In this document: piece after piece, positions 45,248 through 61,715 of the stretch
Layout: each line of letters starts with the position of its first letter
How positions within the stretch are numbered: the first letter of the stretch is position 1
NCBI RefSeq assembly: GCF_023913755.1
Contig: NZ_JAMXBJ010000050.1
Coordinates: 372,001-436,000, forward strand
Origin: Pseudarthrobacter cellobiosi
Lineage (GTDB): Bacteria; Actinomycetota; Actinomycetes; Actinomycetales; Micrococcaceae
Direction: 5' to 3'
Length of the DNA: 64,000 bases
The notes under the pieces: model-generated
What the model was told of the DNA's origin: nothing
Databases searched by the model: none
What the model saw: the letters and a program-made list of their open reading frames with translations, nothing else
Translations under genes and position numbers: made by a program

Positions 45248-47326
45248 TTACGGCGTGCCGGAGAGGAAGTAGCCTGCGACGTCGGCGATGAGGTGGGTCG
45301 TGCCGTTGGAACGGTTGAACAGGGCGACTTTTCCATCGCCCCCGACACGGACGGTGACCGAGTTTGGCACGGTCTGACCCGGGTAGAAGTTTTCGTTCGA
45401 GGCGTTGGGCCGGGTTGTTCCGGAGGGGTAGGCAGCGATAAACCCGAAGTCTTGGGGCTGTGTCACCGTCATGTTGAAGACCACCGCCGAGACCTTCGCC
45501 GGTATCCCGGCAACCCCGCCGACTTTGAAGGACACTGCCGAATCGGCACCGACAGGGACCGTGTCACGGGTGTCCAGGAACCGTGAGGGGACCACAGGTG
45601 CGAACGCTCCGGGGACGGCCGGGGTTCCAGCTATGTAATACCCGGCGACGTCAGCGATGAGGTGAGTGGTGCCGTTGGACCGGTTGAAGAGCGTGACTTT
45701 CCCGTCAGCGCCGACTGGGACGGTGACCGAATTTGGTACGGTCTGACCCGGGTAGAAGTTTTCGTTCGAGGCGTTGGGCCGAGCTGTTCCGGAGGGGTAG
45801 GCAGCGATAAACCCGAAGTCTTGGGGCTGTGTCACCGTCATGTTGAAGACCACCGCCGAGACCTTCGCCGGTATCCCGGCAACCCCGCCGACTTTGAAGG
45901 ACACTGCCGAATCGGCACCGACAGGGACCGCGTCACGGGTGTCCAGGAACCGTGTCGGGGCGATCGGCACGAACGTCCCGGGAGCCGTTGGAACCGGCGC
46001 CACACCGATGGGCCTGTCAGCGAACCAGTAGCGCTTGGCCACGTCGTCGCTGGCCATCACCACGAGGCCCGTCTTGCTGTTCACCGACTGCTTGCTGGTG
46101 GTCACATTGTTAATGTTGGGAGAAGCGGGATCCTCCATGATGGGTGTGCCCCGGCCCGCTGCAAATACGGGGTTGTCCATGGACGCAGTCTTCTCATAAA
46201 TGCTGCCCTCCACGCCGTCAAAAGCGCAACCGTTGACCGTCGATGAGGGTCCTGTTTGGAACGCGTGGACGAGGTTGTTTTCGGGGTCAAGCACAATTTG
46301 CGGCCGAGTCGTGCAATCGCCGGTGAGTGAAATCGTCGACGTCGAGAAGGAGCCGGTGCCTGGTTTGAAAACCAGTAGCACCAACTGGGCCAGCGTCGGA
46401 TCTGTAGAGGTAACGTCGAGATTGGTCTTCACCGCGGCGAAGACCCTGCCAGCGGAGTCGGCCTGCAGTGATTTGAGGTTAAGATGGTCATCGGCCAGTC
46501 CTGTGCCCTTGGTCGCGGACTGGACTTTCCATGACGACGTTGAGGTCGCTGCAGTACCATCGGTGCGCGTGGCCCACCACACGGACCCTGTTCGCTGGTC
46601 GGTCCACATCACCCCGATTTTCTTCTCGCCGTATGCGACGATGGCTGAGATGTCATCGGGTGCTGGATTCGGGTTGGAAACCGGAATAATAAACGGAGTT
46701 GCCCAGCTTGTGCCGCCAGGAGCGGAGTTGTTGACGTAAACCGTGTTGGTGAACCCGGCGACTGGGTCGCCGGCAACCTGCGTCCACGTGGCCCAGACAG
46801 CACCGGTGGTGTCCTGGGCTATAGTCATTGACTCGCTGCTGTTGTTGGTGATGACAGTCGGAAAACCACTGTCCAGCGTGTATTTTCCGCCGGAATAGCT
46901 GTACCTATAGAGGTAGGCAGGTCCTGATACTGAAGGCAGTGGTGTTGTTTCATTGGTCAGAGTGACCAAATGGGAGGCGATGTACAGGTGACTGCCGTCC
47001 CATAGCGTGTCCGCCAGAGTGTTTGCCCGCCTGTCATTAAGCAGCCCCGTATCCACCCATGTCTGGGAGCTACGGTCCAGCCGATAGATGTGCCACCCGC
47101 TGTCTGTCGTCCACATGTCGGCCCACCAGGAGCCATCATTCCACCAGAGCTTGCTTTGCGGCTTGTCCGATGTGGGAGGCTTGCCGACTCCTGCATAGCT
47201 GATACTCGGATGCCCGTACGTGGTGGCGGCCTCGGCTCTGCTGGAAGCAGCGAAACCAGTTCCAGCAACGCATGTCGCCAAAACCATGAGAGTAATCAGC
47301 CAACTGATAGAACGCTTCACTTTCAT
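45248..47326 (-). CDS. secreted protein with C-terminal tandem RFLDTRD units
   Basis: The 692-residue protein starts MKVKRSISWLITLMVLATCVAG, with a Sec signal ending near AEA-ATT (the first residues MKVKRSISWLITLM are shown as typical). Residues about 45-440 form a repetitive beta-rich region, perhaps a propeller (WNDGSWWADMW, VWATWTQVAG, VWWATRTDG). Two 123-residue units follow, each with RFLDTRD, VGGVAGIPAKVSAVVFNMTV and LIADVAGY. This unit is common at the end of actinobacterial exported proteins. No anchor is seen. AGGAGA precedes the ATG. Confidence 0.75.
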   Translation of the reverse strand: MKVKRSISWLITLMVLATCVAGTGFAASSRAEAATTYGHPSISYAGVGKPPTSDKPQSKLWWNDGSWWADMWTTDSGWHIYRLDRSSQTWVDTGLLNDRRANTLADTLWDGSHLYIASHLVTLTNETTPLPSVSGPAYLYRYSYSGGKYTLDSGFPTVITNNSSESMTIAQDTTGAVWATWTQVAGDPVAGFTNTVYVNNSAPGGTSWATPFIIPVSNPNPAPDDISAIVAYGEKKIGVMWTDQRTGSVWWATRTDGTAATSTSSWKVQSATKGTGLADDHLNLKSLQADSAGRVFAAVKTNLDVTSTDPTLAQLVLLVFKPGTGSFSTSTISLTGDCTTRPQIVLDPENNLVHAFQTGPSSTVNGCAFDGVEGSIYEKTASMDNPVFAAGRGTPIMEDPASPNINNVTTSKQSVNSKTGLVVMASDDVAKRYWFADRPIGVAPVPTAPGTFVPIAPTRFLDTRDAVPVGADSAVSFKVGGVAGIPAKVSAVVFNMTVTQPQDFGFIAAYPSGTARPNASNENFYPGQTVPNSVTVPVGADGKVTLFNRSNGTTHLIADVAGYYIAGTPAVPGAFAPVVPSRFLDTRDTVPVGADSAVSFKVGGVAGIPAKVSAVVFNMTVTQPQDFGFIAAYPSGTTRPNASNENFYPGQTVPNSVTVRVGGDGKVALFNRSNGTTHLIADVAGYFLSGTP
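45276..45954 (-). repeat. two 310-bp direct repeats inside the surface-protein gene
   Basis: Positions 45276-45585 and 45645-45954 match at a constant offset of 369 bases (123 codons). A central stretch of about 140 bases appears identical, including synonymous positions, pointing to recent duplication or gene conversion. Confidence 0.85.
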
Positions 47327-47568
47327 TGCAGCTCTCCTGGGTAGGATCGGACACCAAAGCAATCCCTCGCTCAACGTCTATGGAGGGCGCGGCAGTACCT
47401 GTTCCCGGTTAGGACTTGGTCTCTGCCCCAACTGCCGTCGGCATTGATCCCGGCCGGTCCGTAGAGTCTATTGATTGGCACCTAAGGCTGTCCCGAGTAG
47501 TGGGTACTCGTTTTTGTCCATTTCCCCTATCGGCCCATGTTTGTCCCGGTCCCGTATCGTTGACTCTG

Positions 47569-48161: not shown

Positions 48162-49140
48162 TTACCCGTTCCCGGCCATCTCTTCGGGCACTGCCACAAT
48201 GTCCACTTCCTGGCCGTCCCTCAGCACTCGAATCGCCAGCGGCTGGCCGATCGCATCGGCGAACAGCAGCTTCTGGAGGCTTTCGGCGTTGCTGACGGGG
48301 CGGCTTCCGGCTGTCAGGATGACGTCACCCGCCCGCAGGCCCCCGCGATCTGCAGGCGAACCTGCCAGGACCTCCGCCACGCGCAGCCCGTCCCGTTGTC
48401 CCGTCCTGATCACCGCGCTGGCATTGAGCCGGAACGGTGTGCTGACAACGCCGAGATAGGCACGCCTTACGCGGCCGTCCTTCAGGCGCTGCGATGATGC
48501 GCCGTGTGGTGGCGTTGATAGGCACGGCCAGGCCCAGCCCGGCGCCGGCCACCGCGGTATTGATTCCCACGATGTGGCCGTGCGTATCGGCCAGGGCGCC
48601 GCCGGAACTGCCTGCGTTGAGTGCGGCGTCGGTCTGGATGACGTCCTCGATCACGCGCCGGTTGCCGCCGGACCACACTGGGATGGCCCGCCCCAGACCG
48701 CTGACCACTCCTGCGGTGACCGATCCTGCCAGTCCAAGGGGATTGCCCACCGCAATGACCAGCTGGCCCACCCGCAGCGTCTCGGCGTCCCCGAACTGCG
48801 CCGGGGCTACTTTTGGCGGCCGGCCATGGACCACCGCGAGGTCGGACAACGGATCCATGCCCACCAGTTCAAGATCGGTCCGGCTGCCGTCCGCAAAGGC
48901 GGCGTGGCCTTGGTTTGTGCCGGCTACGACGTGCGAATTGGTCAGCAGGTAGCCGTCTTCCGTGAAGAGCACCGCCGAGCCGGCACCCAGGCGGAACCGG
49001 CCATTGCGGCGGTTGCCGGTCATTTCAATGGCCGCAACATGCGGGGTGACCGTCTCAGCCACGCGCATGACGGTCTCCGAATACGAGTCCAGGGGACCGT
49101 CGTCGGCCGCTGCTGAATTGGGTTCCTGCGCGGCGTCCAT
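48162..49140 (-). pseudogene. HtrA/DegP-like serine protease, frameshifted
   Basis: The first frame (from the ATG at 49140, AGGAGG upstream) encodes a trypsin-like domain with His in TNSHVV, Asp in LSDLAVV and Ser in NAGSSGGAL. Near 48485 one extra G (plus strand) shifts the frame after NATTRRIIAA. The second frame resumes with LKDGRVRRAYLGVV and a PDZ domain (AEVLAGSPADRGGLRAGDVI) to the stop at 48162. Deleting one base restores one continuous protein. No signal peptide is seen. It is either a recent pseudogene or a sequencing error. Confidence 0.8.
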
Positions 49141-49290
49141 GGAGCACCTCCTGGCTGGCGTTACTGCCTCCGGATTCCAGACCTTGGTGCTGCGCCGGAG
49201 CTTATTGGCGACAACCATGGCGTGGCCCCGCGTAGTCCCGGAACGGCTACGCCGTCGGTGAACAGGATGCTCAACAGGGCGTTTAGATGC

Positions 49291-49320
49291 CAAAAGACCC
49301 GGACGCGGGGTCCGGGTCTT
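49291..49320 (-). terminator. minus-strand terminator beyond the first tRNA-like 3' end
   Basis: On the minus strand, AAGACCCGGA pairs with TCCGGGTCTT around a seven-base loop and is followed by TTGG. It lies 25 bases past the tRNA-like 3' end at 49345 and probably served that RNA gene. Confidence 0.7.
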
Positions 49321-49344
49321 CTGGCAATGTCTTGCGACATTCAA

Positions 49345-49373
49345 AATGTGGTGATGGGGGAATTGAACCCCCG
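49345..49373 (-). repeat. 3'-end fragment of a tRNA-like gene (att-like site 1)
   Basis: The minus strand reads GGGGGTTCAATTCCCCC, a perfect T-arm, then CATCACCACATTT (acceptor 3' strand). No matching 5' half of a tRNA lies within 100 bases, and the acyltransferase gene starts too close for a complete tmRNA. It resembles 51381-51410 and is interpreted as an attachment-site scar. Confidence 0.65.
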
Positions 49374-49522
49374 TTTGGCCCTAGCCCACCTGTCCGTGTT
49401 CCCGGTCATCGCCCTATTCCCGCTACTCAACGGCGCCCGCGCCACCACCATCGCGCTGCAGCCTCGTAAGTGGGCGCCTGCCCGCCGACGGCATAGTGTC
49501 CAACGTATTCTAAGGCCCTGCG

Positions 49523-50779
49523 TCAACGCCCTGGCGGTGCGGGGCTTCCATTCGTTCCGAGCTGGAGGACGCCCGCAGCGTCAGAGGGCGCCTCGCCGGC
49601 GGCGTGACTGGAAGACACGTATTCTCTGAATTTCGCACTTGCGAACCGTCCTGCACGCTTACTCAGGCGGTGCGCAGGAAGTTCGACAACCTTGGAGAAC
49701 AGCCAGGCGACGACAACCGATATAGGAATAGCGAACAGCAGCGCCCGCATCCAATGATCGGCACCTAGCAGGCGGCTGAATAGAAGGATAATCGGGACAT
49801 GGACCAAATAGAGGCTGAAAGATATCTTACCCAGCCACTGAATGAGTCCCCACTCAAGGAAACGAGTGGCAGTCCTTGAGAATACGGCGCAGAGGACGAT
49901 GAGCACAGCACCCGGAATACTCAATGCCTTGCCAATCGCCAGCGTGAGCGGATCAGTGACGCCACCAATATGCATCGGCCAATAAGCGCACATCAGCAGG
50001 ACTCCCACAGAGAAGCATCCAAACCAGCCTGCTCGGGTCAAGAGCGATGTGCGCCGTGGACGGTAACGTCGGGTCCTGGCCATCACGGGAAAGGCCATTA
50101 CCGCCCCCGCAAGGAAAGCCGAGAGGAAGGTCATGAAGCCGATTTCGTTCATCGCACCGACAACAGAGAGGGCTGTGCAGGCAATCGTCGTCGCGACAGT
50201 CCACCGTCTCAGTACTACGGCGATTCCAACGAAGACCGGCAGCAGCAATGAGAACAGGAACTCCCATTGCAGCGACCAAAGTGGGTTGTTGATCCGCGTT
50301 GGTCCACGAACGGCATCAAAACCACGAACAACTTCTTGCCACTCAAGCAGCGGAACGTCAGATGAGCTGACCCATTTGCTGACAGTCGTCGCAGGGTCAA
50401 TTGTGACAAGTGTTACCCAGAGGCTGGCAAGAAGTAGGGAAGCTGCCACCGGCACCCATAGACGAAGCGTCCTTGCGACGTAGTAGGCGATCCAGTCGAA
50501 GGACTTGGCCCGAAGAACAGGCAGTGACACAACAAGCCCGCTCAGGACGAAGAACAGCAGGACCGCCTCGCCGCCGGCAGTGAAGATCTTCAACGGGGTA
50601 GCGTTCAACCACCAGAGCAGCGTCCCTTCCGCAGGTGTTTCCCGCGTAAAGTACAGATTCGCGAAATCCGGAACGGTCAGCGCGGAATGGTGGATCACGA
50701 CGATCAGTGCGGCCAGCCCGCGACAACCATCGAGGGATCGAAGCCGAGGCGGCCGCGGCGTCGAGGTGGGGTAAGTCAT
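49523..50779 (-). CDS. acyltransferase 3 family membrane protein
   Basis: The 418-residue integral membrane protein has about ten hydrophobic segments and the family hallmarks RLRSLDGCRGLAALIVVIHHS near the N-terminus (core DGCRGLAAL, then the catalytic His). Such enzymes O-acylate cell-surface polysaccharides, peptidoglycan or lipids. Lower GC and a position between two att-like repeats suggest transfer. Surface modification could alter phage receptors (speculation). The ribosome site is weak. Confidence 0.85.
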   Translation of the reverse strand: MTYPTSTPRPPRLRSLDGCRGLAALIVVIHHSALTVPDFANLYFTRETPAEGTLLWWLNATPLKIFTAGGEAVLLFFVLSGLVVSLPVLRAKSFDWIAYYVARTLRLWVPVAASLLLASLWVTLVTIDPATTVSKWVSSSDVPLLEWQEVVRGFDAVRGPTRINNPLWSLQWEFLFSLLLPVFVGIAVVLRRWTVATTIACTALSVVGAMNEIGFMTFLSAFLAGAVMAFPVMARTRRYRPRRTSLLTRAGWFGCFSVGVLLMCAYWPMHIGGVTDPLTLAIGKALSIPGAVLIVLCAVFSRTATRFLEWGLIQWLGKISFSLYLVHVPIILLFSRLLGADHWMRALLFAIPISVVVAWLFSKVVELPAHRLSKRAGRFASAKFREYVSSSHAAGEAPSDAAGVLQLGTNGSPAPPGR

Positions 50780-51300
50780 CAGCTGCCTATTGTTGTTTCG
50801 GCCAACCAGAGGGAGTTAGACGTCGGACTCGGCGGCCCCCAAAGCTTTCCGAACGCGGTTCAAGCATACATCGAGGGCCGACGGACATGTCGCTCGATGT
50901 AAGGCAGGCACGTTGCCACCAGGATGGGGCACGCGGCATTGCGGGATCCGCGCCGGGGAGCGGCCCTGAGTTAGTCGACATGCCCAGTCGCCTGCACCAG
51001 TACGTGCCCGCGGCCCACGCGCCGACCTCCGCGTGCAGCAGTGCCTCGTTGGCTTTCGTCTTGGTCCGAAAACCTCCGAAGGCGACAGCGCAGCGGAGTC
51101 GCGTCTGGCCGCATGGCCCTTGTGCTAACCCTGATCACCGCTGATGCCGCGCTCGAAGCCAACGTCTTGGGGCCACTCGGCCTGCTACTTCCTGCAATTT
51201 ATTCGCTGTTCCCTCCCGGGCGGCACCATCAACGACGCAGCCACTGGATAGAGCATCCGGGAACACAGAATCGACCCCACCCGGAACTACCAGCCCAGAC
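50780..51300. other. gap without recognisable genes
   Basis: Open frames here lack ribosome sites, family similarity or consistent codon use. It may be decayed mobile-element DNA plus the promoter of the acyltransferase gene. Confidence 0.4.
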
Positions 51301-51334
51301 AAAGAAAAACACCCCGGTCCGAAGACCGGGGTGT
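51301..51334 (-). terminator. minus-strand terminator beyond the second tRNA-like 3' end
   Basis: ACACCCCGGT (51309-51318) pairs with ACCGGGGTGT (51325-51334). On the minus strand it is followed by TTTTCTTTG. It lies 47 bases past the acceptor end at 51381. Confidence 0.8.
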
Positions 51335-51380
51335 AACCGATGACCCGACTCATCCGTGAAGGATGTGTCGACTCATCACA

Positions 51381-51410
51381 AATGTGGAGATGGGGGGAAT
51401 TGAACCCCCC
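51381..51410 (-). repeat. 3'-end fragment of a tRNA-like gene (prophage att site)
   Basis: The minus strand reads GGGGGGTTCAATTCCCCCC, then CATCTCCACATTT. The acceptor CATCTCC-A is typical of tmRNA, but the identity is not proven. Only the last roughly 30 bases are present. Prophage genes lie to the right, so the intact gene is expected beyond the right end of the prophage. Confidence 0.65.
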
Positions 51411-51500
51411 AAAATCCCATATAGACACTGAAACCGCGTCATCAGAGTTGTTGCATTTAGGGACATTAGCGCGTTTCTATGAACACACAAAACACGCCGA

Positions 51501-51517
51501 TGTCATCCGTGATGACA
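51501..51517. promoter_or_regulatory. perfect palindrome before the first prophage gene
   Basis: TGTCATCCGTGATGACA is a 7-3-7 perfect inverted repeat 67 bases upstream of the next start. It is a plausible phage operator. Confidence 0.45.
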
Positions 51518-51571
51518 CGATTTTCACACGTTTCCACCACCAAAACCGACCACTCCGAACACCATCCGCGA

Positions 51572-51583
51572 TAGAATTGGACC
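51572..51583 (+). promoter_or_regulatory. leaderless promoter -10 of the first prophage gene
   Basis: TAGAAT (51572-51577), six bases, then the ATG at 51584. Confidence 0.6.
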
Positions 51584-52111
51584 ATGACCACAACCCCCGA
51601 AGCAGTCGAAAACTCCCCCGCGCGCTCGACCGACGAACTGATGCTCGACAGCATGGGCGCTACGCCGAACGGTTTTGAAATCAGGACTCACGCCGGAGGC
51701 CCGGAGACGGCCGACACGCTGCTGTTCATTGCGGATGCCATGCGCGATGCACTGGACGGGCACAACGCCCCGAACTATCTGGAGATGGAAGTGAAGGCGT
51801 CGGACGGCAAGCGCTACATCATGAACTTGCAGCGCGCGGGAAAGCTCACCCCTCACCAGGCGCGCGTCAATGCCGAGGAAGCGCTTGAAGCCAGCAAGCC
51901 CCGCACCATCACGAAGGCGGAGGAACTGGACGCGCTGCCGGTAGGGTCCGTCGTGCTTCACAACGGGCGAGCGTTCCAGCACTACCCGGCATACCCGGCG
52001 CCGTTCGACGAGTACCAGCAATGGAAGTGCGGCGACGGCGGATTTGTCCGCTCAACCAAGGACGGCAGCTCTATCCTCCCCGCTACCGTCCTGCATGAGG
52101 CCGCCAAGTGA
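51584..52111 (+). CDS. prophage protein, unknown function
   Basis: The 175-residue protein contains a C-terminal segment, TKAEELDALPVGSVVLHNG, seen in various phage proteins, with no enzyme motif. It is read from a probable leaderless promoter and overlaps the next small gene (GTGA). It may be expressed in the lysogen, being near the left att site. Confidence 0.65.
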   Translation: MTTTPEAVENSPARSTDELMLDSMGATPNGFEIRTHAGGPETADTLLFIADAMRDALDGHNAPNYLEMEVKASDGKRYIMNLQRAGKLTPHQARVNAEEALEASKPRTITKAEELDALPVGSVVLHNGRAFQHYPAYPAPFDEYQQWKCGDGGFVRSTKDGSSILPATVLHEAAK

Positions 52112-52257
52112 TCGCAAAGTGGTTCTACCTCAGCGCATTCGTCATCAATGCGGTCCTCTTTCTGGCGAACTTCCTTGAGCGCGATACGCACGACATGATC
52201 TTCCATGGCTTCGCGGCCGCGATCTGGTACGCCTGTGCAGAAAGGTCCGCCAAGTGA
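52108..52257 (+). CDS. small membrane protein, 49 residues
   Basis: The GTG start overlaps the previous stop. The product begins VIAKWFYLSAFVINAVLFLA, with one or two hydrophobic helices (the second GFAAAIWYACA). Start-stop overlaps on both sides support it. It may be a lysogeny or exclusion protein. Confidence 0.55.
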   Translation: MIAKWFYLSAFVINAVLFLANFLERDTHDMIFHGFAAAIWYACAERSAK

Positions 52258-52535
52258 TCCCGGCAGAGGCTGTCGAGGCGGCGGTCCCGTGGATCACGAA
52301 CTTCCTTGAGCGCCGCGGCCTGTCACTCAGGGGCAAAGAGGCTGAGGCGCTGGCGGGCTACATCCTCACAGCCGCAGCCCCGCACATGCTGGCAGCGGCA
52401 CAGTCGGCCGCGCTGGAGGAAGTCGCCGACCTGATTGAGCCATTCAGTGGGATCGGATTGGCGCATGGCGCGACACGGGGCGACGTCGCGCGCTGGCTCC
52501 GCGACCGGGCCGCCACCTACAGGCCCGCCGAGTGA
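52254..52535 (+). CDS. prophage protein, unknown function
   Basis: The 93-residue alpha-helical protein has a GTG start overlapping the upstream stop and in turn overlaps the HNH gene. No domain is recognised. Confidence 0.55.
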   Translation: MIPAEAVEAAVPWITNFLERRGLSLRGKEAEALAGYILTAAAPHMLAAAQSAALEEVADLIEPFSGIGLAHGATRGDVARWLRDRAATYRPAE

Positions 52536-52894
52536 GCCCGATCCGCGCCAGCGAGAAACTGCGCTACCCGGAGGACTGGCGAGAGATCAGCGCACGCATC
52601 CGGTTCGAGCGGGCCAACGGCCAGTGCGAATGCTTAGGCGAGTGCGGGCGGGGCACTCACGGCGACCGTTGCCCGAACCGTCACGGGATGCCCGCTTACG
52701 GCACCGGCTCCAACGTCGTGCTCACCACGGCGCACCTTGACCACACCCCGGAGAACTGCGAGGACGACAACCTGAAGGCGATGTGCCAGGGCTGCCACCT
52801 CCACTACGACAAAGGCCACCACTCCGAGACGCGGGCCGCCACGAAGGCTGCCGCCGTAGCGCTGGCTGGGCAGATGGCACTTCCGCTCGCCTGA
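52532..52894 (+). CDS. HNH endonuclease-like protein
   Basis: The 120-residue protein has cysteine pairs (CECLGECG; CQGCH) around TTAHLDHTPEN and a closing HLHYDKGHH, the HNH pattern with a zinc site. Phage HNH proteins act in packaging or as free-standing nickases. Its place at the left end, away from any terminase, makes the role unclear. Confidence 0.78.
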   Translation: MSPIRASEKLRYPEDWREISARIRFERANGQCECLGECGRGTHGDRCPNRHGMPAYGTGSNVVLTTAHLDHTPENCEDDNLKAMCQGCHLHYDKGHHSETRAATKAAAVALAGQMALPLA

Positions 52895-52949
52895 ATGGTT
52901 CCGCGGCCGGAACAATTCTGCATATCCAGCATCGGTTGATTATCAAACC

Positions 52950-53321
52950 TCAGCCGCCTGAAGCTCCACCCTTCGCAACGAGCACGGCCGCGAGTGAGGC
53001 TAGAACGTTGCGGTCCTCCGGTGGGAGTTGGCCGGCGCCGGGGAGTACCAGGTCTGTCCGGTTCCCCTCCCCCACATCCAAGCCGACCTGACGCGCCGCA
53101 GCCAACAACACGTCAGTCTCCGACACGCCAAGGCCGCGGGCGAACGCGCGCACCGTCACCGGATCCGGCAACAGCTTCCGCTCAAAGTCCGGGGACCCCC
53201 ACTGCTGCCACGACGACAGAGTCGAAAGTGCGCCCAACGATGCCGCCCGGTCCTTCAACTCCCGGAACGAACGATCCCCCTTCAACTCCGCAATCAGGGC
53301 CGCGAGCGTCGGGCCGGTCAC
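52950..53321 (-). CDS. phage HTH protein, repressor-like
   Basis: The 123-residue protein has an N-terminal helical region (SFRELKDRAASLGA) and PVTVRAFARGLGVSETDVLLAA, resembling actinophage immunity-repressor HTH proteins. Its ATG overlaps the lipoprotein stop. It is read leftward with the lysogeny genes. Confidence 0.6.
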   Translation of the reverse strand: MTGPTLAALIAELKGDRSFRELKDRAASLGALSTLSSWQQWGSPDFERKLLPDPVTVRAFARGLGVSETDVLLAAARQVGLDVGEGNRTDLVLPGAGQLPPEDRNVLASLAAVLVAKGGASGG

Positions 53322-53710
53322 GGCACCACCACCGAACCGCCCAGCTTGTCCTTGATCTTCGCCAACATGCTTTCGTCCTCCGACTGGATCAACCAGCGGG
53401 GACCTTGGAGTGACGGCGTCTTGGTAAACCCCGTCATGACCTTCCCAGTAATCATCGCGTCATCCGTCTTGAAGACATGCAACCCGAGATCGCTGGAGCA
53501 CTTCAGGAAGTCCTCATCGCCGCTGTCCGACTTATCCGACGCGTCGCCGGGACACTCCACACCGGACGCCACAACAGCCTCCCGCAGCTTCGACGCACTC
53601 TCATACGTCGCATCCTTCGCCGGGCCGCCACAACCAGCCAGGGCCAATACCAACACAGGTGCCCAAAGAAACCTCTTCAACGTTCCGCCTTCAATAAGGG
53701 GCCAGCCCAT
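53318..53710 (-). CDS. prophage lipoprotein
   Basis: A basic N-terminus, a hydrophobic stretch and the lipobox LALAGCGGP mark a lipoprotein of up to 130 residues. The start may be the ATG at 53710 or a TTG ten codons later. Lipoproteins in phage lysogeny modules can block superinfecting DNA (as Ltp of a streptococcal phage), but no direct similarity is claimed. Confidence 0.65.
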   Translation of the reverse strand: MGWPLIEGGTLKRFLWAPVLVLALAGCGGPAKDATYESASKLREAVVASGVECPGDASDKSDSGDEDFLKCSSDLGLHVFKTDDAMITGKVMTGFTKTPSLQGPRWLIQSEDESMLAKIKDKLGGSVVVP

Positions 53711-53732
53711 CCGGGCCGACCTGGTTCAGTTC

Positions 53733-54161
53733 CTACGCAACGAGAACACCTTCCGGATGCTCCGCCGACAACTCCACACCGATACACCGAACCGCGCACA
53801 CATCCAGCATCAGCCGCTCAAGCTTCGAGAGGCCCATGAGCCGCGCATAAACCAGCTCGCAATCCACATTCAACATCACCGCCAACGCGCTGACATCACT
53901 GCACGCAATATAAGCATCCAATAGTGCCCGAAATGGGATGAAATACTCAGCCGTCATCTTCTCGACCCTGATCTCCCGTGCCATCCTGACACCCGGAGCG
54001 CCGCACGGCTCATGCTTCAGGAACTTATGGAATCTTTCATGCGTAACAGTCAAGCGTCTCTGATGTCGATCGAGCCGCTCATCCGCATGAATCAGGCCCG
54101 TAGCGTGATCGTAATAGCCTAAAACCCGACTGGGCATAACACCCAAAACCACACCGTCCAC
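53733..54161 (-). CDS. ImmA/IrrE-like metallopeptidase
   Basis: The protein carries THERFHKFLKHE, an HExxH zinc-protease motif, and the ImmA/IrrE layout with a following acidic helix. ImmA of ICEBs1 cleaves the neighbouring repressor ImmR. Here a repressor gene lies directly upstream. GTG at 54161 is preferred because GGGAG lies seven bases before; a TTG at 54212 is the longer option. Confidence 0.72.
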   Translation of the reverse strand: MDGVVLGVMPSRVLGYYDHATGLIHADERLDRHQRRLTVTHERFHKFLKHEPCGAPGVRMAREIRVEKMTAEYFIPFRALLDAYIACSDVSALAVMLNVDCELVYARLMGLSKLERLMLDVCAVRCIGVELSAEHPEGVLVA

Positions 54162-54214
54162 CGAGTTACTCCCAGGCCCCCGAGGATCCCCCCATGGAAT
54201 CCAGTAGCCCAAGT

Positions 54215-54264
54215 ATTGGATTAAATTTCAGTGTTCGCAACACGCAGAATATACATTTGTGGAC
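54215..54264. promoter_or_regulatory. shared operator elements upstream of the ImmA-like gene
   Basis: ATTGGATTAAAT (54215-54226) also occurs at 54891-54902, and ATTTGTGGAC (54255-54264) is the inverse of GTCCACAAAT at 54831-54840. Both partners lie in the repressor-Cro gap, so one regulator may bind both places. Confidence 0.5.
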
Positions 54265-54281
54265 ACTGGATTTCCGCAGGT

Positions 54282-54776
54282 TCAGTCGTGTTTTTCCGCA
54301 GGTTTTGCGCGGCCCCTGGGCTGGCGCGGAAAGAGCTCCCGACGCGCCGCCAATTCGTACTGTTCCGTCGCCGACATCAGCCGGCCTTCACTCTTCTCCT
54401 GAACATGTTCGGCCGTGGCGGGACTCTTCTTGTCCACAAGTTTTTCCAGCTTTTCGACATATTCCTTCTCCTCGACCATAGTGCGGACCATTTCCGCTAC
54501 TGCGTTCTTCTGACGTTCTGACAGCTTCTCCGTACCGGCCGGCATTGTGAGCGGCCTGGCAGCCACACCGGAGGTAATCCGGTACAGCTGTTCAACAGGG
54601 ACCCGGAGCGCGGAGGCCAGCTTCTCCATGTTCTCCACGGAGGTTGTAGCGCCCGTCATGATGACCGCATTGGCCCGCGTATGGTCCGGCAGTCCGGCGA
54701 CTTTTGCGAGCTGCCGGATTGAGGTGATGCCCACCTTCTGCATGAGGTCCATCCAGGGCCCCGGTATTGCTGTCAT
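54282..54776 (-). CDS. prophage repressor (XRE/cI-like)
   Basis: The protein has 164 residues from the ATG at 54776. An N-terminal HTH (SIRQLAKVAGLPDHTRANAVI, core RQLAKVAGLP) is followed by SVENMEKLASALRVPVEQLY, the XRE pattern, and a charged coiled-coil-like tail (KEYVEKLEKLVDKK). No LexA-type peptidase domain is seen, which fits control by the adjacent ImmA-like protease rather than RecA-driven self-cleavage. Confidence 0.75.
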   Translation of the reverse strand: MTAIPGPWMDLMQKVGITSIRQLAKVAGLPDHTRANAVIMTGATTSVENMEKLASALRVPVEQLYRITSGVAARPLTMPAGTEKLSERQKNAVAEMVRTMVEEKEYVEKLEKLVDKKSPATAEHVQEKSEGRLMSATEQYELAARRELFPRQPRGRAKPAEKHD

Positions 54777-54830
54777 GGCTTCAATCTTCCTGTTGCTGTT
54801 ACGTGTGTCAATGGAACATTTTACGGACCC

Positions 54831-54954
54831 GTCCACAAATACCAGCGTTGTAATTCCGGTGTTTCCATAACCCCGTAGGCAAATCCAACGATTGGATTAA
54901 ATAAGTTGTAGACAGAGCCGATCACAAACGTGTAATGTGTTTCGTATCAACACA
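54831..54954. promoter_or_regulatory. repressor-Cro intergenic control region
   Basis: It holds AATCCAACGATTGGATT (54882-54898, perfect 7-3-7 dyad) and TGTGTT-N7-AACACA (54936-54954). A rightward promoter is possible as TAGACA (54909-54914), 18 bases, TAATGT (54933-54938); the second dyad overlaps its -10. Confidence 0.6.
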
Positions 54955-55025
54955 CCACGACTCAGCAGGTCTCAACGGTCGAGTGTTACGTGTATAGGAA
55001 GAACACACCCCACCAAGGAGACACC

Positions 55026-55337
55026 ATGCGCACCACCACCGAAAGGCTCGACATCAAACTCAGCAACGCCGACCTGTTCGCCCAGATCATGAAGGCGAAC
55101 GGCTACACCGTGAGGACCCTCACCGAATCCGTGCAGCACGTCCTCATTCGCAAACGCTCCAAAGCCCGCATCAGCAAATCCACCATCGGCCACCTCCGAT
55201 CCGGCGCCCGCAACACCGTCAACCACGACGTCGCCCTCGCCATCGCCGAACTATTCAAACTCCCCGCAAACGCACTCTTCACACCCAAAGTCGTCACCGT
55301 CACCCGCGACGTCCCATCCACCAGGAGCAAGCCATGA
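55026..55337 (+). CDS. Cro-like HTH regulator
   Basis: The 103-residue protein has an XRE-type HTH (NGYTVRTLTESV ... ISKSTIGHLRSGARNTVNHD, AIAELFKLP). It is divergent from the repressor and heads the rightward early operon. AAGGAG precedes the ATG at 55026. Its stop overlaps the next start (ATGA). Confidence 0.75.
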   Translation: MRTTTERLDIKLSNADLFAQIMKANGYTVRTLTESVQHVLIRKRSKARISKSTIGHLRSGARNTVNHDVALAIAELFKLPANALFTPKVVTVTRDVPSTRSKP

Positions 55338-55573
55338 CCCGCCCCGCAGTCCTCGAATCCCCGACCGCCCCCGATTGGACCAGCCAGGCGTTCGCCGCGC
55401 TCGAGGCCGCAGCACTCGCCGGCCACCCCTGCGACGCCCGGTCCCTCATCGCGCACGGCCTCCCGAAACCGCCCGTCGCCTGCATGTGGGGAGCATTGTT
55501 CGCCGAAGCATCCAAGGCGCGGATCATCCGCAAAGTCACCGGCCCGCGCAGATCATGGCTGGCATCCGCATGA
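55334..55573 (+). CDS. small prophage protein, 79 residues
   Basis: The helical protein (TSQAFAALEAAALAGHPCDARSLI) is bounded by start-stop overlaps on both sides. It has no recognised family. Confidence 0.55.
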   Translation: MTRPAVLESPTAPDWTSQAFAALEAAALAGHPCDARSLIAHGLPKPPVACMWGALFAEASKARIIRKVTGPRRSWLASA

Positions 55574-55701
55574 CCTACGCCGAAGCCCTCCGCCACGCAG
55601 TCCACGCCGTCATCAACGCCGACCTCCCGCTGGCCGACACCCGCACCGCCGTCATGAACCTCATCCCGAAGGAACATCATGTTGCTCACCACCAGCGCTA
55701 A
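55570..55701 (+). CDS. small prophage protein, 43 residues
   Basis: It starts MTYAEALRHAVHAVINADLP, with its ATG overlapping the upstream stop. It is short and helical, function unknown. The downstream gene begins inside it. Confidence 0.5.
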   Translation: MTYAEALRHAVHAVINADLPLADTRTAVMNLIPKEHHVAHHQR

Positions 55702-55897
55702 GACCACCCTCCCGCAACACTCCACCGGCTGGCGGGTCATGCGACTCGTCACCGACCGCGGCGGCAAGAACCTCGTGGAACCGCCCACGGCGTGGGGACG
55801 CCATCGGAACCTCACCGCTGAGGAAGCGTTCAAACTCCTCGAACGGCGTGTCCGAATCGCCCGCGGCCTCATGAGCCTCCGGGAAACCAGACCGTGA
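55679..55897 (+). CDS. small prophage protein, 72 residues
   Basis: AAGGA precedes the ATG. The sequence is basic (WRVMRLVTDRGGKNLVEPP) and has no recognised domain. It overlaps the following HTH gene. Confidence 0.55.
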   Translation: MLLTTSAKTTLPQHSTGWRVMRLVTDRGGKNLVEPPTAWGRHRNLTAEEAFKLLERRVRIARGLMSLRETRP

Positions 55898-56133
55898 CCG
55901 CAGCGCCGACGGAGGCGCCCCGCACCTACACGGTCGCCCAGCTCGCGGACATCCTCCAGATCGACCCCCGCACCGTCCGCACCAAAGCCCGCACCGGAAC
56001 CTGGCCATCACTCGACTTCGGCCCCCGCACCATCCGCTTCACCGAAACCCACCTCGACACCATCCTCACCACATCAGAAGCAACCCCACCACCAGAGCGG
56101 ACCACACGCCGCAGAACAAGGAGACCGTCATGA
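55894..56133 (+). CDS. excisionase-like HTH protein
   Basis: The 79-residue protein has TYTVAQLADILQIDPRTVRTKARTGTWP, a MerR/AlpA-type winged helix typical of phage excisionases (core QLADILQIDPRTVRTKA), and a basic tail. It could be Xis, or a regulator of the early operon. Confidence 0.7.
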   Translation: MTAAPTEAPRTYTVAQLADILQIDPRTVRTKARTGTWPSLDFGPRTIRFTETHLDTILTTSEATPPPERTTRRRTRRPS

Positions 56134-56210
56134 ACAGATGCGCCGGAACGTGGGAAACCACCGGCAACATCCGCGTCCACCGCCCATGCACCCACCGCCC
56201 CACCAGATAG
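56130..56210 (+). CDS. micro-protein, 26 residues
   Basis: AAGGAG lies seven bases before the ATG, which overlaps the upstream stop. The product (MNRCAGTWETTG ... PCTHRPTR) has two cysteines and two histidines. Its size is marginal, but the signals are good. Confidence 0.45.
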   Translation: MNRCAGTWETTGNIRVHRPCTHRPTR

Positions 56211-56220
56211 GAGAACCGCC

Positions 56221-56400
56221 ATGCAACTCCCCTACGTTGAACCCGTCTTCGGCAAGCACGCCGCCAAACTCACCCGCGAAGAAATCCGCGAACAGGGCCT
56301 CACCCTCGCAGCAAACGGCGGCACCATCCACACTGGCTGGGGCAAGCACCGCCGCAACCTCTACGAACACATCAGCTACCGAGTAGTCGAGGCCGCATAA
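56221..56400 (+). CDS. small prophage protein, 59 residues
   Basis: It starts MQLPYVEPVFGKHAAKL after TAGGAGAA. The helical N-terminus contains LTREEIREQG. Its stop TAA overlaps the next ATG. No family is recognised. Confidence 0.55.
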   Translation: MQLPYVEPVFGKHAAKLTREEIREQGLTLAANGGTIHTGWGKHRRNLYEHISYRVVEAA

Positions 56401-56786
56401 TGTCCATCCGCAAAACCACCGAACGCCACGCCCGCGCCGTCATCCTCTCCCAGTGCCGCCAGTTCATCGAAGACACCACCTGGGACGAACCCGGCACCGT
56501 ATGGGACCGCCGCGTCGAAAACCTCGCCAAGATGCTCGACGCCGAGACGGGGGCCGACATCTCCCAGAAAGCCATCGCCGACCTCCGCGAACTCGTCACC
56601 ACCCTCGAAGAGATCCAGTCCGTCGACGCCGGCACCCACCACCGCATCGTCATGAACACCGCACTGACGATCGACAACCGCCCCGACCTCCGCGACGAAC
56701 TCAACCAAACCCTCCGCGACAACATCGCCGAGCTGCTCCAGGTCGCCGCGTTCCGCGCAACAGACGATCGGCAGGTGGCGGCGTGA
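56400..56786 (+). CDS. prophage protein, unknown, 128 residues
   Basis: It is an alpha-helical, charged protein (TTERHARAVILSQCRQFIED), coupled on both sides. No enzyme motif is seen. Confidence 0.6.
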   Translation: MSIRKTTERHARAVILSQCRQFIEDTTWDEPGTVWDRRVENLAKMLDAETGADISQKAIADLRELVTTLEEIQSVDAGTHHRIVMNTALTIDNRPDLRDELNQTLRDNIAELLQVAAFRATDDRQVAA

Positions 56787-57175
56787 GCACCATCGAAGAA
56801 CTCGAAGCGCAGGGTTACATCGTGATCCCACCCACCGACCTTCCCGAGATAAAGACCAACGAGGACGAACTACTCGCCTACTGCGACGGCATAGACAAGA
56901 TGGCCCTCTACGGATCCTTGATCAAGCGGAGCGTCCCACTCCCGTCCACATCAAACCTCGGCGCCAACCACTCCGTCAGCAACGAGTACCGCCGCGCCGT
57001 GGCTCACCTTGCAATGGCCAAGTGGTACGAGGAGAACCTGCCCTTCGAGGAGAAGGTCTGCAAGCTGCGCAACGAGATCCTCAAGGGCGACGGGATGGAA
57101 TGGTGGCAGGCCAAGCCTAAGCGGATGCGCACGGCGACCAAGCAGGCACGCGCCCTCCTGCGGGTGCAGCCATGA
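56783..57175 (+). CDS. prophage protein, unknown, 130 residues
   Basis: The GTG at 56783 overlaps the upstream stop, and the stop overlaps the next ATG. The product starts VSTIEELEAQGYIVIPP. No domain is recognised. Confidence 0.6.
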   Translation: MSTIEELEAQGYIVIPPTDLPEIKTNEDELLAYCDGIDKMALYGSLIKRSVPLPSTSNLGANHSVSNEYRRAVAHLAMAKWYEENLPFEEKVCKLRNEILKGDGMEWWQAKPKRMRTATKQARALLRVQP

Positions 57176-57366
57176 CCGCCGCCATGTACTCGGCCAGCAT
57201 GGTCATCTCCCCTGCTGGGTACGCGCGCCGGATCCGCGCCGCCGAACGCCGCGTCACGATCGCCCAAAAACGGGCATCCACCAACCCCACCCCCGCCAAC
57301 CGGGAAGCCTCCGCCGAACTCGAAGCAGGCCTCACCCGACTCAAAGCAGAGGCCGCGACGATATGA
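57172..57366 (+). CDS. small prophage protein, 64 residues
   Basis: A basic helical protein (YARRIRAAERRVTIAQKR), coupled to both neighbours by ATGA overlaps. Confidence 0.55.
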   Translation: MTAAMYSASMVISPAGYARRIRAAERRVTIAQKRASTNPTPANREASAELEAGLTRLKAEAATI

Positions 57367-57560
57367 CCGAGAGAACGTTCAACCCCAAGATTCACGCACT
57401 GCCGAACAGTAAGACCATCCTCATCGACCTCGGCCAGGACAACTACCTGAGCATGTCGGCCGACGTCGCAAAGAAGTTCGCCGGCCGGATCCTAACCGCC
57501 GCCAACGAAGCCGAAGGCAATCTGCCCGCACACATGTTCGTGATCGAGGTGGAGAAGTGA
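57363..57560 (+). CDS. small prophage protein, 65 residues
   Basis: It starts MTERTFNPKIHALPNSKTIL and is bounded by overlaps at both ends. A beta-alpha pattern is visible; no family is recognised. Confidence 0.55.
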   Translation: MTERTFNPKIHALPNSKTILIDLGQDNYLSMSADVAKKFAGRILTAANEAEGNLPAHMFVIEVEK

Positions 57561-57679
57561 GCCGCCAGCCGATCCGCCTGACCCGCCGCGGGGAACTCGT
57601 ATTCGGTGCACTCGGCGCCATCCTCGCGCTCGTCATCACCCCGGCCGCATGGACCGTGTTCCTGGTGGTGGCACGATGA
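57557..57679 (+). CDS. single-span membrane peptide, 40 residues
   Basis: The GTG start overlaps the upstream stop. A basic N-terminus (VSRQPIRLTRRGE) is followed by one hydrophobic helix (ALGAILALVITPAAWTVFLV). Confidence 0.5.
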   Translation: MSRQPIRLTRRGELVFGALGAILALVITPAAWTVFLVVAR

Positions 57680-57966
57680 GCACCTCACTCGACCTGGACA
57701 TCTCAGCACTCGTCGGCGAGATGGACGCCGTGCCCTGCGAACATACCCAGCACGGGCTCCACCCGCTCCACACCGACAGCCCCGCAAGCCACTACGTCCG
57801 CGTGCACTGCCCATCATGCCCGTACGACTCCGGCGTGTTCGCCGCCTGCCAAGGATTCATCGCCGCCGTCCTCGCCAACATGACGGGAAGATGCTTCGGA
57901 TGCGACACCACCACCCCCGCCAGCGAAGCAGTCACCATCCTCGGACCCGTAGGAGGTTCCAAATGA
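57676..57966 (+). CDS. zinc-ribbon-like prophage protein
   Basis: The 96-residue protein has CEHTQHG, HCPSCPYD and CFGCDT, so it probably binds zinc. It is coupled to its neighbours, and its function is unknown. Confidence 0.6.
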   Translation: MSTSLDLDISALVGEMDAVPCEHTQHGLHPLHTDSPASHYVRVHCPSCPYDSGVFAACQGFIAAVLANMTGRCFGCDTTTPASEAVTILGPVGGSK

Positions 57967-58313
57967 GCTTGAAATGCCCCCGATGCAACCGCCGCACGTT
58001 CGTTCCTGCCCGTGTCGGTAACTTCCGGGTCCGGCCCACGAACCTCCCGGCCGGGGTCATCGCCGCTATCACGTTGGATGGGACGTGCACGACTTGCTAC
58101 CGGTTCCTCAAGGGCAAGACCCGGCTCATCACCAAAGGCACCACGAGCAAGGAAGAGCGCGTCTACCGGCACACCATGAGCGACGCCGAAATCGAGCAGG
58201 CCCGGCAAGAGCTCCAGAGATTGTGGGCCGCGAGACGCCGGAGAGGCGTCCACCCCGAAGGCCTGGACCCCGCCACGCTCCACCGGCCCGGACTGACATT
58301 GCTTGAAGCCTGA
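57963..58313 (+). CDS. zinc-ribbon prophage protein
   Basis: The 116-residue protein has CPRCNRRTF near the start and CTTCYRFLKGK, an N-terminal zinc ribbon, then a helical tail. It could bind nucleic acid. It ends a coupled gene run; a 104-bp AT-richer gap follows. Confidence 0.6.
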   Translation: MSLKCPRCNRRTFVPARVGNFRVRPTNLPAGVIAAITLDGTCTTCYRFLKGKTRLITKGTTSKEERVYRHTMSDAEIEQARQELQRLWAARRRRGVHPEGLDPATLHRPGLTLLEA

Positions 58314-58349
58314 AAATTGGTGGATGTTTAGTGCTGGAAACACTACAAA

Positions 58350-58379
58350 TTGTCATTACAAGCATGTAGAGTCTACTTA
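58350..58379 (+). promoter_or_regulatory. possible internal early promoter
   Basis: TTGTCA (58350-58355), 18 bases, TACTTA (58374-58379) lies in the only sizeable gap of the early operon, before the recombination genes. Confidence 0.35.
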
Positions 58380-58417
58380 TCACCTTCCCGCAAGATCCCC
58401 CTTGAGAGGTAAACCAA

Positions 58418-59623
58418 ATGAGCAAGCTCACGTTCGCAGAGTTCAGCAAGTTCCAGCGACTCAACTACGTCCAGATCGCACCCTCCGGCTCGCTCGTCGC
58501 CCTCGCTGGCAAGAACAAGCAGGGAAAGTCGAGCATCCTTGACGGACTCGAAGCCGCCATCTGCGGGCACAACGGCAGAGTCATCACCCGCCCCATCAAC
58601 GACGGCGCCGACAAGGCAGCCATCACCGTCGAAACTGACGACGGCCTGCAGGTCACCCGCACCTACACCCCGGCCGGCTCCAAGCTCGTCATCAAGGCAG
58701 CCGACGGCGCCAAGTACGGGCAGGCCAAGCTGGACTCCCTCATCGGCTCCCTTGGACTCGACGCCTCACAGTTCGCCAGCCTCAACGACAAGGACCAGCT
58801 CAAGACACTTCTCGGCCTCGTGGAGCTACCCTTCGACCCGGCCACTCTGGAGGACGAACGCAAGGCGATCTTCGATCAGCGCACCGAAGCCAACCGGCGC
58901 GAGAAGGAACTCACCGCGCAGGTCGCAAGGTTCCTCGCCCTTCCCGCCGACCTGCCCGCCGAAGAGGTCAGCGTCTCCGCGCTCGTCACGGCCTACCGCG
59001 AAGGTCAGGCGCTCAACGCCAAGATCATCGAAGCGGACGCCGCCGTAAGCACCTGGACCAGAAGAGTCGAACAGCTGACAGCAGAGCTTGCGACCGCGCA
59101 GGAGCAGCTGGACAACGCATCCGACTACTCCGCCAAGGCTCCCGCCCCCGTCGACGTCGACACCATTCAGCACAAGATCGACGGCGCCGAAGTCACCAAC
59201 GCACAAGTCCGGGCCGCGCAGGAAAAGGCTCGACTCGAAGCCTCGCTGAAGGATGCCGACGCAGCCTCCGACGACCTGACCGCCAAGCTCGCCGCCATCG
59301 ACAAGCGCAAAGCTGACGGCCTCGCCGCCGCAATCTTCCCCGTCGATGACCTCAGCTTCGACGAAGAAGGCGTGCTCTACAAGGGCCGCCCCTTCAACCG
59401 CGCGTCATCCGCTGAGAAGGTCCTCGTCTCCGCGGCCATGATGATCGCACTCAACCCGGAACTCCGGGTCCTCATCGTCCGCAACGGCAACGACCTCGAC
59501 TCCGACAGCCTCACCGCACTGGAGACAATGGCCGCCGACGCAGACTTCCAGGTGTTCATCGAAATCGTCAACGAAACCGGCGACTTCGGCATCACTATCG
59601 AAGACGGCGAAGTAGCGGCATGA
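58418..59623 (+). CDS. SbcC/RecF-like AAA ATPase of the recombination module
   Basis: The 401-residue protein has Walker A AGKNKQGKSSILDGLEAAICG (core GKNKQGKSS), a central coiled coil (about 150-300) and a C-terminal half-ATPase with SSAEKVLVSAAMMIA (signature-like). The expected Walker B is LRVLIVRNGNDLD, lacking the usual Asp-Glu pair. It may act with the nuclease at 59972 as an SbcCD-like or Gam-like helper. Confidence 0.72.
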   Translation: MSKLTFAEFSKFQRLNYVQIAPSGSLVALAGKNKQGKSSILDGLEAAICGHNGRVITRPINDGADKAAITVETDDGLQVTRTYTPAGSKLVIKAADGAKYGQAKLDSLIGSLGLDASQFASLNDKDQLKTLLGLVELPFDPATLEDERKAIFDQRTEANRREKELTAQVARFLALPADLPAEEVSVSALVTAYREGQALNAKIIEADAAVSTWTRRVEQLTAELATAQEQLDNASDYSAKAPAPVDVDTIQHKIDGAEVTNAQVRAAQEKARLEASLKDADAASDDLTAKLAAIDKRKADGLAAAIFPVDDLSFDEEGVLYKGRPFNRASSAEKVLVSAAMMIALNPELRVLIVRNGNDLDSDSLTALETMAADADFQVFIEIVNETGDFGITIEDGEVAA

Positions 59624-59805
59624 GCCCCGACCAGTGCTACTGCCGCGGCGCCGGCATCTGCGACAACAACCACCACATCTGCGAGGCCTGCACCTGCGAG
59701 CACGACGGCGCACCGCATACCCAAGCCGAAGTCACATCCGGCCACGTCAACCCATCCAGTGCCCGCCTCGACGCGTGGCAAGAGAAATTGGAGGCCACCC
59801 GATGA
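59620..59805 (+). CDS. cysteine-rich small protein, 61 residues
   Basis: It starts MSPDQCYCRGAGICDNNHHIC, with seven cysteines and four histidines, so metal binding is likely. It is coupled on both sides. Confidence 0.55.
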   Translation: MSPDQCYCRGAGICDNNHHICEACTCEHDGAPHTQAEVTSGHVNPSSARLDAWQEKLEATR

Positions 59806-59975
59806 GCTGGGAACCACAAGACGACGCACCATACGCCGAATGGATCGTCTACGGCGAAACCGGCGAAGTCATCGGCACCTACGGCCAAGACGAACACCGC
59901 GCCAAAGAAGCCGCCCGAGCCTGCGGCGGCCGCGACCTCGGCATCGAAGCCCAATACGTGGAGGTGGGAGGATGA
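59802..59975 (+). CDS. small prophage protein, 57 residues
   Basis: It starts MSWEPQDDAPYAEWIVYGE and is acidic, with ATGA overlaps on both sides. Unknown family. Confidence 0.55.
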   Translation: MSWEPQDDAPYAEWIVYGETGEVIGTYGQDEHRAKEAARACGGRDLGIEAQYVEVGG

Positions 59976-60793: not shown

Positions 60794-61713
60794 GCGAAGT
60801 AGCCATCACCCAGCAGCCCGGACAAGTTGCCCAGTTCGGGACACCCACCGTCGCCCCAACGGCCACGACCATCTCACTCATGGAGTGGGCGCAGGAACTC
60901 TCCGCCGCGCACCAGCTCGGCACCGCCCTCTGCAGCACCGAGTTCGTTCCGGCATCATTCCGTGGGAAGCCGGAAGCCGCGGCCGCCGCGATCCTCGCCG
61001 GGAAGTCCCTCGGGCTGGACCCGATGAACGCGCTGGCGAACATCTTTGTCGTCTCCGGCCGACCCTCCATGTACGCCCGCACGATGGCCGCGCTGGTCAT
61101 GCAGGCAGGCCACACCATCCGCCGCATCCAAGCCACGGAACAGAGCGTCATCTACGAAGGCAAGCGCAAGGGCGACACCACATACACCCGCGTTGAGTGG
61201 ACCATCGCTCGCGCCCAGAAGGCCGGCTACACGTCGAACAAGAAATACCAGTCCGACCCCATCGCCATGCTCACGGCAAAGTGCCAGGCGGAAATCTGCC
61301 GGGTCATCGCCCCCGACGTCCTGACGGGCATCGCCGCTACCTCGGTGGAAGAGGTGGAACTGGACGACCTCGGCGAGACGGGCACCAGCACGGCCACCGA
61401 AGCGCCGAAGGCTAAGCGGACCGTCACCCGCAAGCAGCAGCCCGCACCGGAGCTCCCCGCCGCCGTGCACGACGCGCCGGCCGACGATGCAGAACCCGCG
61501 CCGGAAGATGAGCCCGACACTGCTGAGCCGGGGATCACCACCGCGCAGCTCACCAAGCTCAACATCATCCTCCAAGAGCAAGGCCTCAGTGACCGGGAGG
61601 ACAAGCTCAACTACCTCTCCACCTACCTGGGCCGCTCCATCGAGTCATCCAGGGACCTGACCAAATCCGAAGCCCACCGACTCATCGACGAACACGAAAC
61701 GGACGCAGCGTAA
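60790..61713 (+). CDS. recT: RecT-family single-strand annealing protein
   Basis: The 307-residue protein has the RecT core ([51 protein letters not shown] in the middle, core [11 protein letters not shown]) and an acidic Pro/Ala-rich tail after about residue 200 with a final helical segment. It pairs with the nuclease for phage recombination. Confidence 0.88.
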
Positions 61714-61715
61714 CC

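Follow-up and report, generated by a model that had tools for sequence, protein, structure and literature searches.

Copies of the ssrA 3' end in the window

The window, i.e. the whole stretch of 64,000 nt that we analyzed, corresponds to C32:372001-436000 of the 4.30-Mb genome of an Arthrobacter-like actinobacterium. The features discussed here are listed in Table 1. A preliminary description had reported two tRNA-like 3' ends, each with a minus-strand terminator downstream, and both ends (referred to as sites A and B) are found on the minus strand at the positions it gave, as are the two hairpins. It had also named ssrA as a possible source gene and suggested looking for an intact RNA gene past position 64000. 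We found an intact ssrA (tmRNA) with a matching 3' end at C32:478502-478870 on the minus strand, 42.5 kb past the window end, with the tag peptide AKSNRTDFALAA. Site B (GGGGGTTCAATTCCCCCCATCTCCAC, minus strand) has 0 mismatches to the last 26 nt of this gene. The naming of ssrA is thereby supported. Site A (AAACGGGGGTTCAATTCCCCCATCACCACATTTTGAA, minus strand, 49340-49376) has one C fewer than ssrA and one T-to-A change.

Table 1. Features around sites A and B (positions in the window)
Feature	Position	Strand	Evidence
Hairpin of the native ssrA terminator	49296-49318	-	Related sequence, same position, in the 26 relative loci with intact ssrA
Site A, ssrA 3' end in decayed form	49346-49373	-	Sequence; homology to relatives' ssrA
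Acyltransferase gene, 418 aa, PF01757, 58.3% GC	49523-50779	-	ORF list, domain, GC
Remnant IS481-family right end, terminal base 51380	51221-51380		80-87% match to ends of intact IS copies
Decayed end of transposase gene (44 codons versus the last 47 residues, one stop)	51225-51356	+	tblastn, E 4e-15
Hairpin within the IS right end (second terminator of the preliminary description)	51312-51331	-	Also present in intact copies
16-nt stretch expected to be duplicated by an IS entering ssrA (tRNA nt 62-77)	51381-51396	-	Comparison with L071, IS at ssrA in G040
Site B, 26 nt identical to the ssrA 3' end, putative distal prophage attachment site	51384-51409	-	Identity to ssrA; integrase at the opposite end
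Left part of the ~55-kb prophage, continuing to C32:478.5 kb	51410-64000		PHROGs: HNH endonuclease, repressors, RecT, exonuclease, SSB, others

The 17-mer core GGGGGTTCAATTCCCCC has exactly three exact copies in the genome (site A, site B and the ssrA 3' end), all inside ~57 kb. Six more places in the genome match it with 1 or 2 mismatches, and its backward control has 0 genome matches with up to 2 mismatches allowed. A scan of viral contigs with the core returned 40 loci. According to Rfam, site B is a tmRNA fragment (31.2 bits, E 5e-10, below the gathering score of 47), and site A has no match at E up to 1. Within the window, ARAGORN called neither a complete tRNA nor a complete tmRNA. A complete unrelated RNA gene at these loci, which would have spoken against the preliminary description, is thus found by neither program, and for site A this candidate was ruled out (no ARAGORN call, and no Rfam match at the above E-value). 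The folding of 49341-49520 is not unusual (z -0.26).

The interval between A and B contains the acyltransferase gene and no further ORF of at least 200 aa, and no integrase or other element gene survives in it. The low GC content noted earlier for the acyltransferase ORF is confirmed: windows of equal size in the left flank have a median of 65.2%, and 1 of 160 is lower. Its proposed role as cargo of an integrating element is not supported, and its closest relative found (in G147) lies ~13 kb upstream of ssrA. Large repeat-bearing ORFs, alike by eye, are found near the acyltransferase gene both in the window (45248-47374) and in G147 (L175:5497-8175), which may reflect a neighborhood, mobile or rearranged, that is common to both loci. 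We also note an HtrA-type protease-like ORF (recognized by eye) at 48162-49344 on the minus strand, which is in two frames (48325-49344 and 48162-48413) with a stop inside the translation of 48162-49140; it is a pseudogene or reflects a sequencing error.

The native junction of ssrA

Comparison of window positions 49180-49374 with relatives gave identities of up to 91%. In the ten best relatives the match stops at query position 192-195, which is the outer edge of the T-stem, and the homology to the DNA downstream of the relatives' ssrA stops at ~49374. We fetched 29 same-genus loci, picked by their match to the A side. Among them, 26 have an intact ssrA according to ARAGORN, followed directly by A-side-like DNA and a terminator, and tmRNA is absent from the other three (L022, L035 and L036). 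Since ssrA in the relatives runs into A-side DNA, we take the A side as the native downstream sequence of ssrA, with the ~57 kb from A to ssrA being inserted; the uninterrupted site in these 26 loci concerns this whole insert and not the prophage alone. Many of the 70 ssrA genes that we surveyed in the genus (the 70 best scores, own gene included, and not a random draw) have different downstream DNA, so the A-side joint is to be read as the ancestral state of the nearer relatives. The alternative that the B-side DNA is the native downstream sequence was rejected, because the best-matching relatives carry A-side sequence there, and because B-side DNA is also found behind different tRNA or tmRNA genes in 9 of 11 loci (L056-L066).

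Prophage at ssrA

The preliminary description had placed the start of a prophage right at the second tRNA-like end, which agrees with the extent of the phage region from ssrA to B and with the integrase beside ssrA. A gene for a 389-aa tyrosine integrase (PF00589, PHROG integrase) starts ~100 bp behind ssrA. The genes between ssrA and B include those for endolysin, minor tail proteins, Dit, tape measure, portal and terminase, and further those for helicase, methyltransferase, SSB, RecT, exonuclease and repressors. The region therefore starts with an intact tmRNA gene and an adjoining integrase, continues with phage genes and closes with a direct repeat of the tmRNA 3' end; since the integrase abuts ssrA and the phage genes lie between, we consider B to be the attachment site at the distal end of a ~55-kb prophage of the tailed-phage type.

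A second tyrosine recombinase-like gene is found within the tail cluster of the prophage (C32:470582-471586, equal to L042:16582-17586), and its DNA is 82% identical to an annotated gene of phage Judy. Two prophages were considered as an explanation of the second recombinase and set aside: the Arthrobacter phages Judy, Isolde and Auxilium are annotated with two each, so one prophage is simpler. Integrases of known Arthrobacter phages are up to 52% identical to the integrase of the window prophage. Those of Isolde and Auxilium (~51% identical) have, by eye, a tRNA-Ser(gga) 3' end nearby.

The same layout is seen in G009, where ssrA is accompanied by an integrase 86% identical to that of the window prophage and, ~56 kb off, by an ssrA scar and then an IS right end (see below). 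Among the 70 genus ssrA genes (own included), 5 have a related integrase within 1.4 kb, and in 10 the distance to an IS right end is at most 45 nt, as compared to a background of 3 out of 1803 windows for the latter.

IS481-family remnant beside site B

The stretch adjoining site B (51221-51383) has many matches in the genus, and in 9 of the 11 fetched loci its homologue adjoins a tRNA-Arg, Ser, Ala, Tyr or Leu gene or tmRNA. Intact copies of the IS are ~1.35 kb long with a single 405-aa IS481-family gene. The transposases of two intact relatives score 244.4 and 245.7 bits with NF033577 (cut-off value: 224), and 90 and 86 bits with the ISNCY_2 model (cut-off value: 250), in a comparison at the level of family models. 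In L058 and L060, the transposase gene is the only long coding-strand ORF inside the IS bounds, and no Tn7-type accessory targeting gene (TnsC, TniQ/TnsD) appears as another long coding-strand ORF. Searching PDB sequences with the transposase gave only weak retroviral integrase-like matches, and searching plasmids with the IS right end gave no match. An AlphaFold2 model of the transposase built from three sequences was set aside (mean pLDDT 50, pTM 0.24).

Because the sequence and terminator beside B belong, by homology, to the end of an IS481-family transposon, the insertions at ssrA are probably three rather than two. Of the earlier proposal of two successive integrations into one gene, the repeated use of a single 3' end with scars left behind is retained, and the number is revised.

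A second IS481 right-end remnant is present in the same genome (C32:157593-157668, L243), directly behind tRNA-Arg(tct) and with a hairpin of its own.

Census of related transposases

We collected copies of the IS by transposase similarity, irrespective of their location. Transposase matches were found in 2 of 101 genomes of the same genus (E up to 1e-60), and in 27 of 245, 38 of 394 and 11 of 296 genomes in the family, class and phylum searches, respectively; the named genomes gave 10 transposase loci, and the general IS481 model had matches in 19 of 41 family genomes (E up to 1e-40). The fetched copies are a part of those listed; for instance, three rows of the class search and about ten of the general-IS481-model search are outside the set. 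Out of 144 rows, 137 were long enough (230 aa) for a quick tree. L105, L118, L121, L148, L169, L224, L226, L227, L238, L239 and L240 were left out of the tree (each repeats a copy already included, has an identical counterpart in a sister genome, or is a piece at the end of a contig), as was L073, a repeat of L072.

The tree contains a clade of 92 rows (SH-aLRT 96), 64 of which are at a complete tRNA or tmRNA gene with the RNA 3' end facing the end of the transposase gene; 13 are at a tRNA 3' fragment, 9 at neither and 6 at contig edges. None of the 45 IS481 rows outside the clade (42 distinct, with three repeated loci, namely L244 and the two of L262) is found at a tRNA. When short rows are included, the clade has 98 rows, and the 67 at complete genes represent 24 anticodons and tmRNA. 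In a phylum sample outside the tree, 12 distinct copies include 7 at complete genes, 4 at fragments and 1 at neither (the L386 result is that of the L379 copy, and the second copy on the L386 contig was left out). As for the nine clade rows at neither, L156 is the second of a tandem pair at one tRNA-Leu; in L119, L143 and L149, inspection by eye shows DNA resembling a T-arm with the same spacing; and L124, L126, L131, L133 and L188 have no tRNA explanation, the transposase end being cut or decayed in some of them.

Target site of the clade

The target analysis covered 80 of the 98 clade rows, i.e. those in which the motif GTTCRANTC occurs and the distal sequence is long enough. Of these 80 assessable copies, 65 have a duplication of 11 nt or more and 15 have none of that length. 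The duplication starts at tRNA nt 62 in 63 of the 65 copies (two bases later in the other 2), it extends over 15-16 bp to the right end in 60, and the left end terminates in ACA in 61; the TGT side is fixed by construction, as right ends were located by TGT. Besides the T-arm bases required by the search, nt 74 is C in 62 of 64 distinct targets. The T-arm motif was required by the nt-62 search, which makes its conservation in the alignment partly a matter of construction, and tRNA conservation would yield much of the target pattern, so the pattern is no proof of what the enzyme reads. That copies also occur at tRNA fragments suggests that the target may need no more than the T-arm side; at such sites, a later prophage could have moved the IS to a scar, as in the window.

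Right ends and terminators

A terminator-like hairpin in the tRNA sense was found in 38 of 50 non-redundant right ends, as compared to 1 of 50 in antisense, 19 of 50 in internal sequences and 109 of 500 in Markov shuffles. The terminator signal of the right ends is an enrichment, not proof. In a draw of 61 genomes, 26 have a right end by a stricter count, or 38 if all matches with E up to 1e-6 are taken, and 3 have a left end; the stricter count, made by hand, takes matches that start at most 6 nt from the IS end and span at least 60 nt, and the left-end query came from the G040 copy and the right-end query from the window, with which diverged left ends may be missed. Among 32 right-end remnants (30 distinct, as L174 and L176 were fetched twice), 25 (23 distinct) immediately follow a complete tRNA or tmRNA, 4 follow a fragment of a T-arm, and the other three show, by eye, a degenerate T-arm or duplicated acceptor sequence. 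The excess of right ends over left ends perhaps comes from their use as terminators.

A model of the locus and its alternatives

The reading that we favor (with a probability of roughly 0.85, judged from sequence comparison) is that the ssrA 3' end has been used at least three times, by an integrase-type element, an IS481-family IS and the ~55-kb prophage, and that the IS comes from a clade that targets tRNA and tmRNA genes. An integrase-type element would have entered ssrA first, with scar A remaining. An IS481-family transposon would then have inserted into the restored ssrA 3' end, leaving the right end that is recognized by homology (Table 1). The ~55-kb prophage, whose attachment repeats are seen, would finally have entered by tyrosine recombination, which restored ssrA and left the IS end behind the distal scar B. 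Site A contains the T-loop and the IS duplications do not, which makes an integrase scar, and the oldest event, the best reading of A; the IS end is directly behind B, so the IS should have been at ssrA before the prophage arrived. This order of events is by parsimony, not proof.

We further think it probable, with real room for doubt, that the clade consists of stand-alone IS481-family elements, phylum-wide, and that these recognize the T-arm at the DNA level in tRNA and tmRNA genes, with neither helper proteins nor a guide RNA. The ~400-residue DDE transposase would recognize T-arm DNA, cutting at nt 61/62 and 15-16 bp beyond and placing the right end at the tRNA 3' end. Because the duplication of 15-16 bp would rebuild the 3' half, the tRNA gene stays whole, and the right-end hairpin in the tRNA sense would supply a new terminator. 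Hosts would retain the right end in this role, which may be why right ends outlast the decayed remainder of the element.

Three other explanations were weighed against these readings. If only integrase-type elements had been active at ssrA, the B-side stretch would belong to the terminus of the first element, and its similarity to sequences elsewhere would reflect a shared terminator. Some right-end matches indeed do not extend beyond the hairpin (query 47-81), a structure that may simply be a usual terminator in the genus, but the B-side match reaches the exact IS terminus and the transposase C-terminus, and full-length B-side matches are found behind many different tRNAs, which makes this explanation highly improbable. 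Site A could instead be the target duplication of an IS insertion at ssrA whose body has decayed, and the five C residues before ATC in A do resemble the L071 IS duplication at ssrA. However, A carries GGGGGTTCAATT on its inner side, whereas the IS duplications nearly always begin at nt 62 (63 of 65), and the IS left end was not found in the own genome; we regard such an origin of A as very unlikely.

The third explanation concerns the clade as a whole, which might insert widely, with the tRNA-adjacent copies surviving selection as harmless. tRNA 3' ends are known as safe sites for many elements (PMC11406308), and 9 of the 92 clade rows are indeed away from tRNAs. Against this, selection for a harmless place would not set the cut to one nucleotide, and the other IS481 rows, under similar selection, are never at tRNAs (0 of 45). 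We therefore consider survival of harmless copies very unlikely as the source of the pattern, and favor targeting by the clade.

Comparison with known systems

tRNA 3' ends are classic landing sites of integrase-borne elements, and some casposons insert there with a duplication of ~14 bp. Casposons are large elements with a Cas1-type enzyme, whereas the clade consists of one-gene DDE ISs. In the clade, a one-gene DDE transposon appears convergent on the integrase site, with near single-nucleotide precision.

The published comparisons draw on parts of the papers cited. The stacked integration site at ssrA is itself ordinary: stacked genomic islands at ssrA are documented in Dehalococcoides (PMC3146451), which share with the window the successive ssrA insertions, the direct repeats of the 3' end and the cargo between repeats. 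They differ in that the Dehalococcoides islands have a serine recombinase, whereas the window has a tyrosine integrase and an IS end at the same site. Targets of IS481-family elements elsewhere include NCTAGN (ISLxc2; PMC2516522) and REP sequences (P. fluorescens SBW25; PMC11708052). These elements share the transposase family (NCBIfam) and TGT...ACA ends with the clade. Unlike the short duplication of ISLxc2 at NCTAGN (PMC2516522), the clade duplicates 15-16 bp from tRNA nt 62; a given target type is not required of every IS481 member, so a different target marks a subgroup.

The IS1202 family contains dif-hunting ISs and a subgroup with 16-28-bp duplications for which a target was not found (PMC10132070). 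Like the clade, these are one-gene DDE ISs with TGT...ACA ends, a special target and fixed orientation, but the group studied there uses dif sites with duplications of 3-5 bp and the transposases of our clade fall under the IS481 model. The word 'tRNA' is absent from the text of PMC10132070 that was searched. Tn7-like elements and CASTs at tRNA genes also resemble the clade in DDE transposition and TGT/ACA ends (PMC11406308), but they need TniQ/TnsD or a guide RNA, whereas the IS of the clade is ~1.35 kb with one transposase gene. Three IS481 elements are named in Kocuria without their targets in the part of PMC12500396 drawn on, and IS481 is mentioned without tRNA targeting in the corresponding parts of PMC2909200 and PMC9569102. 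In the literature searched, which lies mostly outside subscription papers and ISfinder, we found no description of IS481 elements at tRNA genes, and targeting of tRNA nt 62 by an IS481-family clade was likewise not found in print there.

The natural variation within the clade should be useful for locating the part of the transposase that would read the T-arm, and the clade might be developed into a compact tool for targeted insertion that does no harm. The domestication of IS ends as tRNA terminators becomes a testable idea. With a prophage and an IS at one ssrA, attachment scars can carry IS ends off the gene.

IS ends in tandem

Two IS481 ends are found in tandem behind one tRNA-Ser(gct) in G041 (C18; L060/L169): past the first IS and its target duplication, another related element is represented by its right end and by what is left of its transposase (43% identity). 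In L083 (G013 C1, ~8076-8158), the ssrA 3' end is followed by a repeat of its last bases and then by an IS right end, as if the sequence held the duplications of two insertions.
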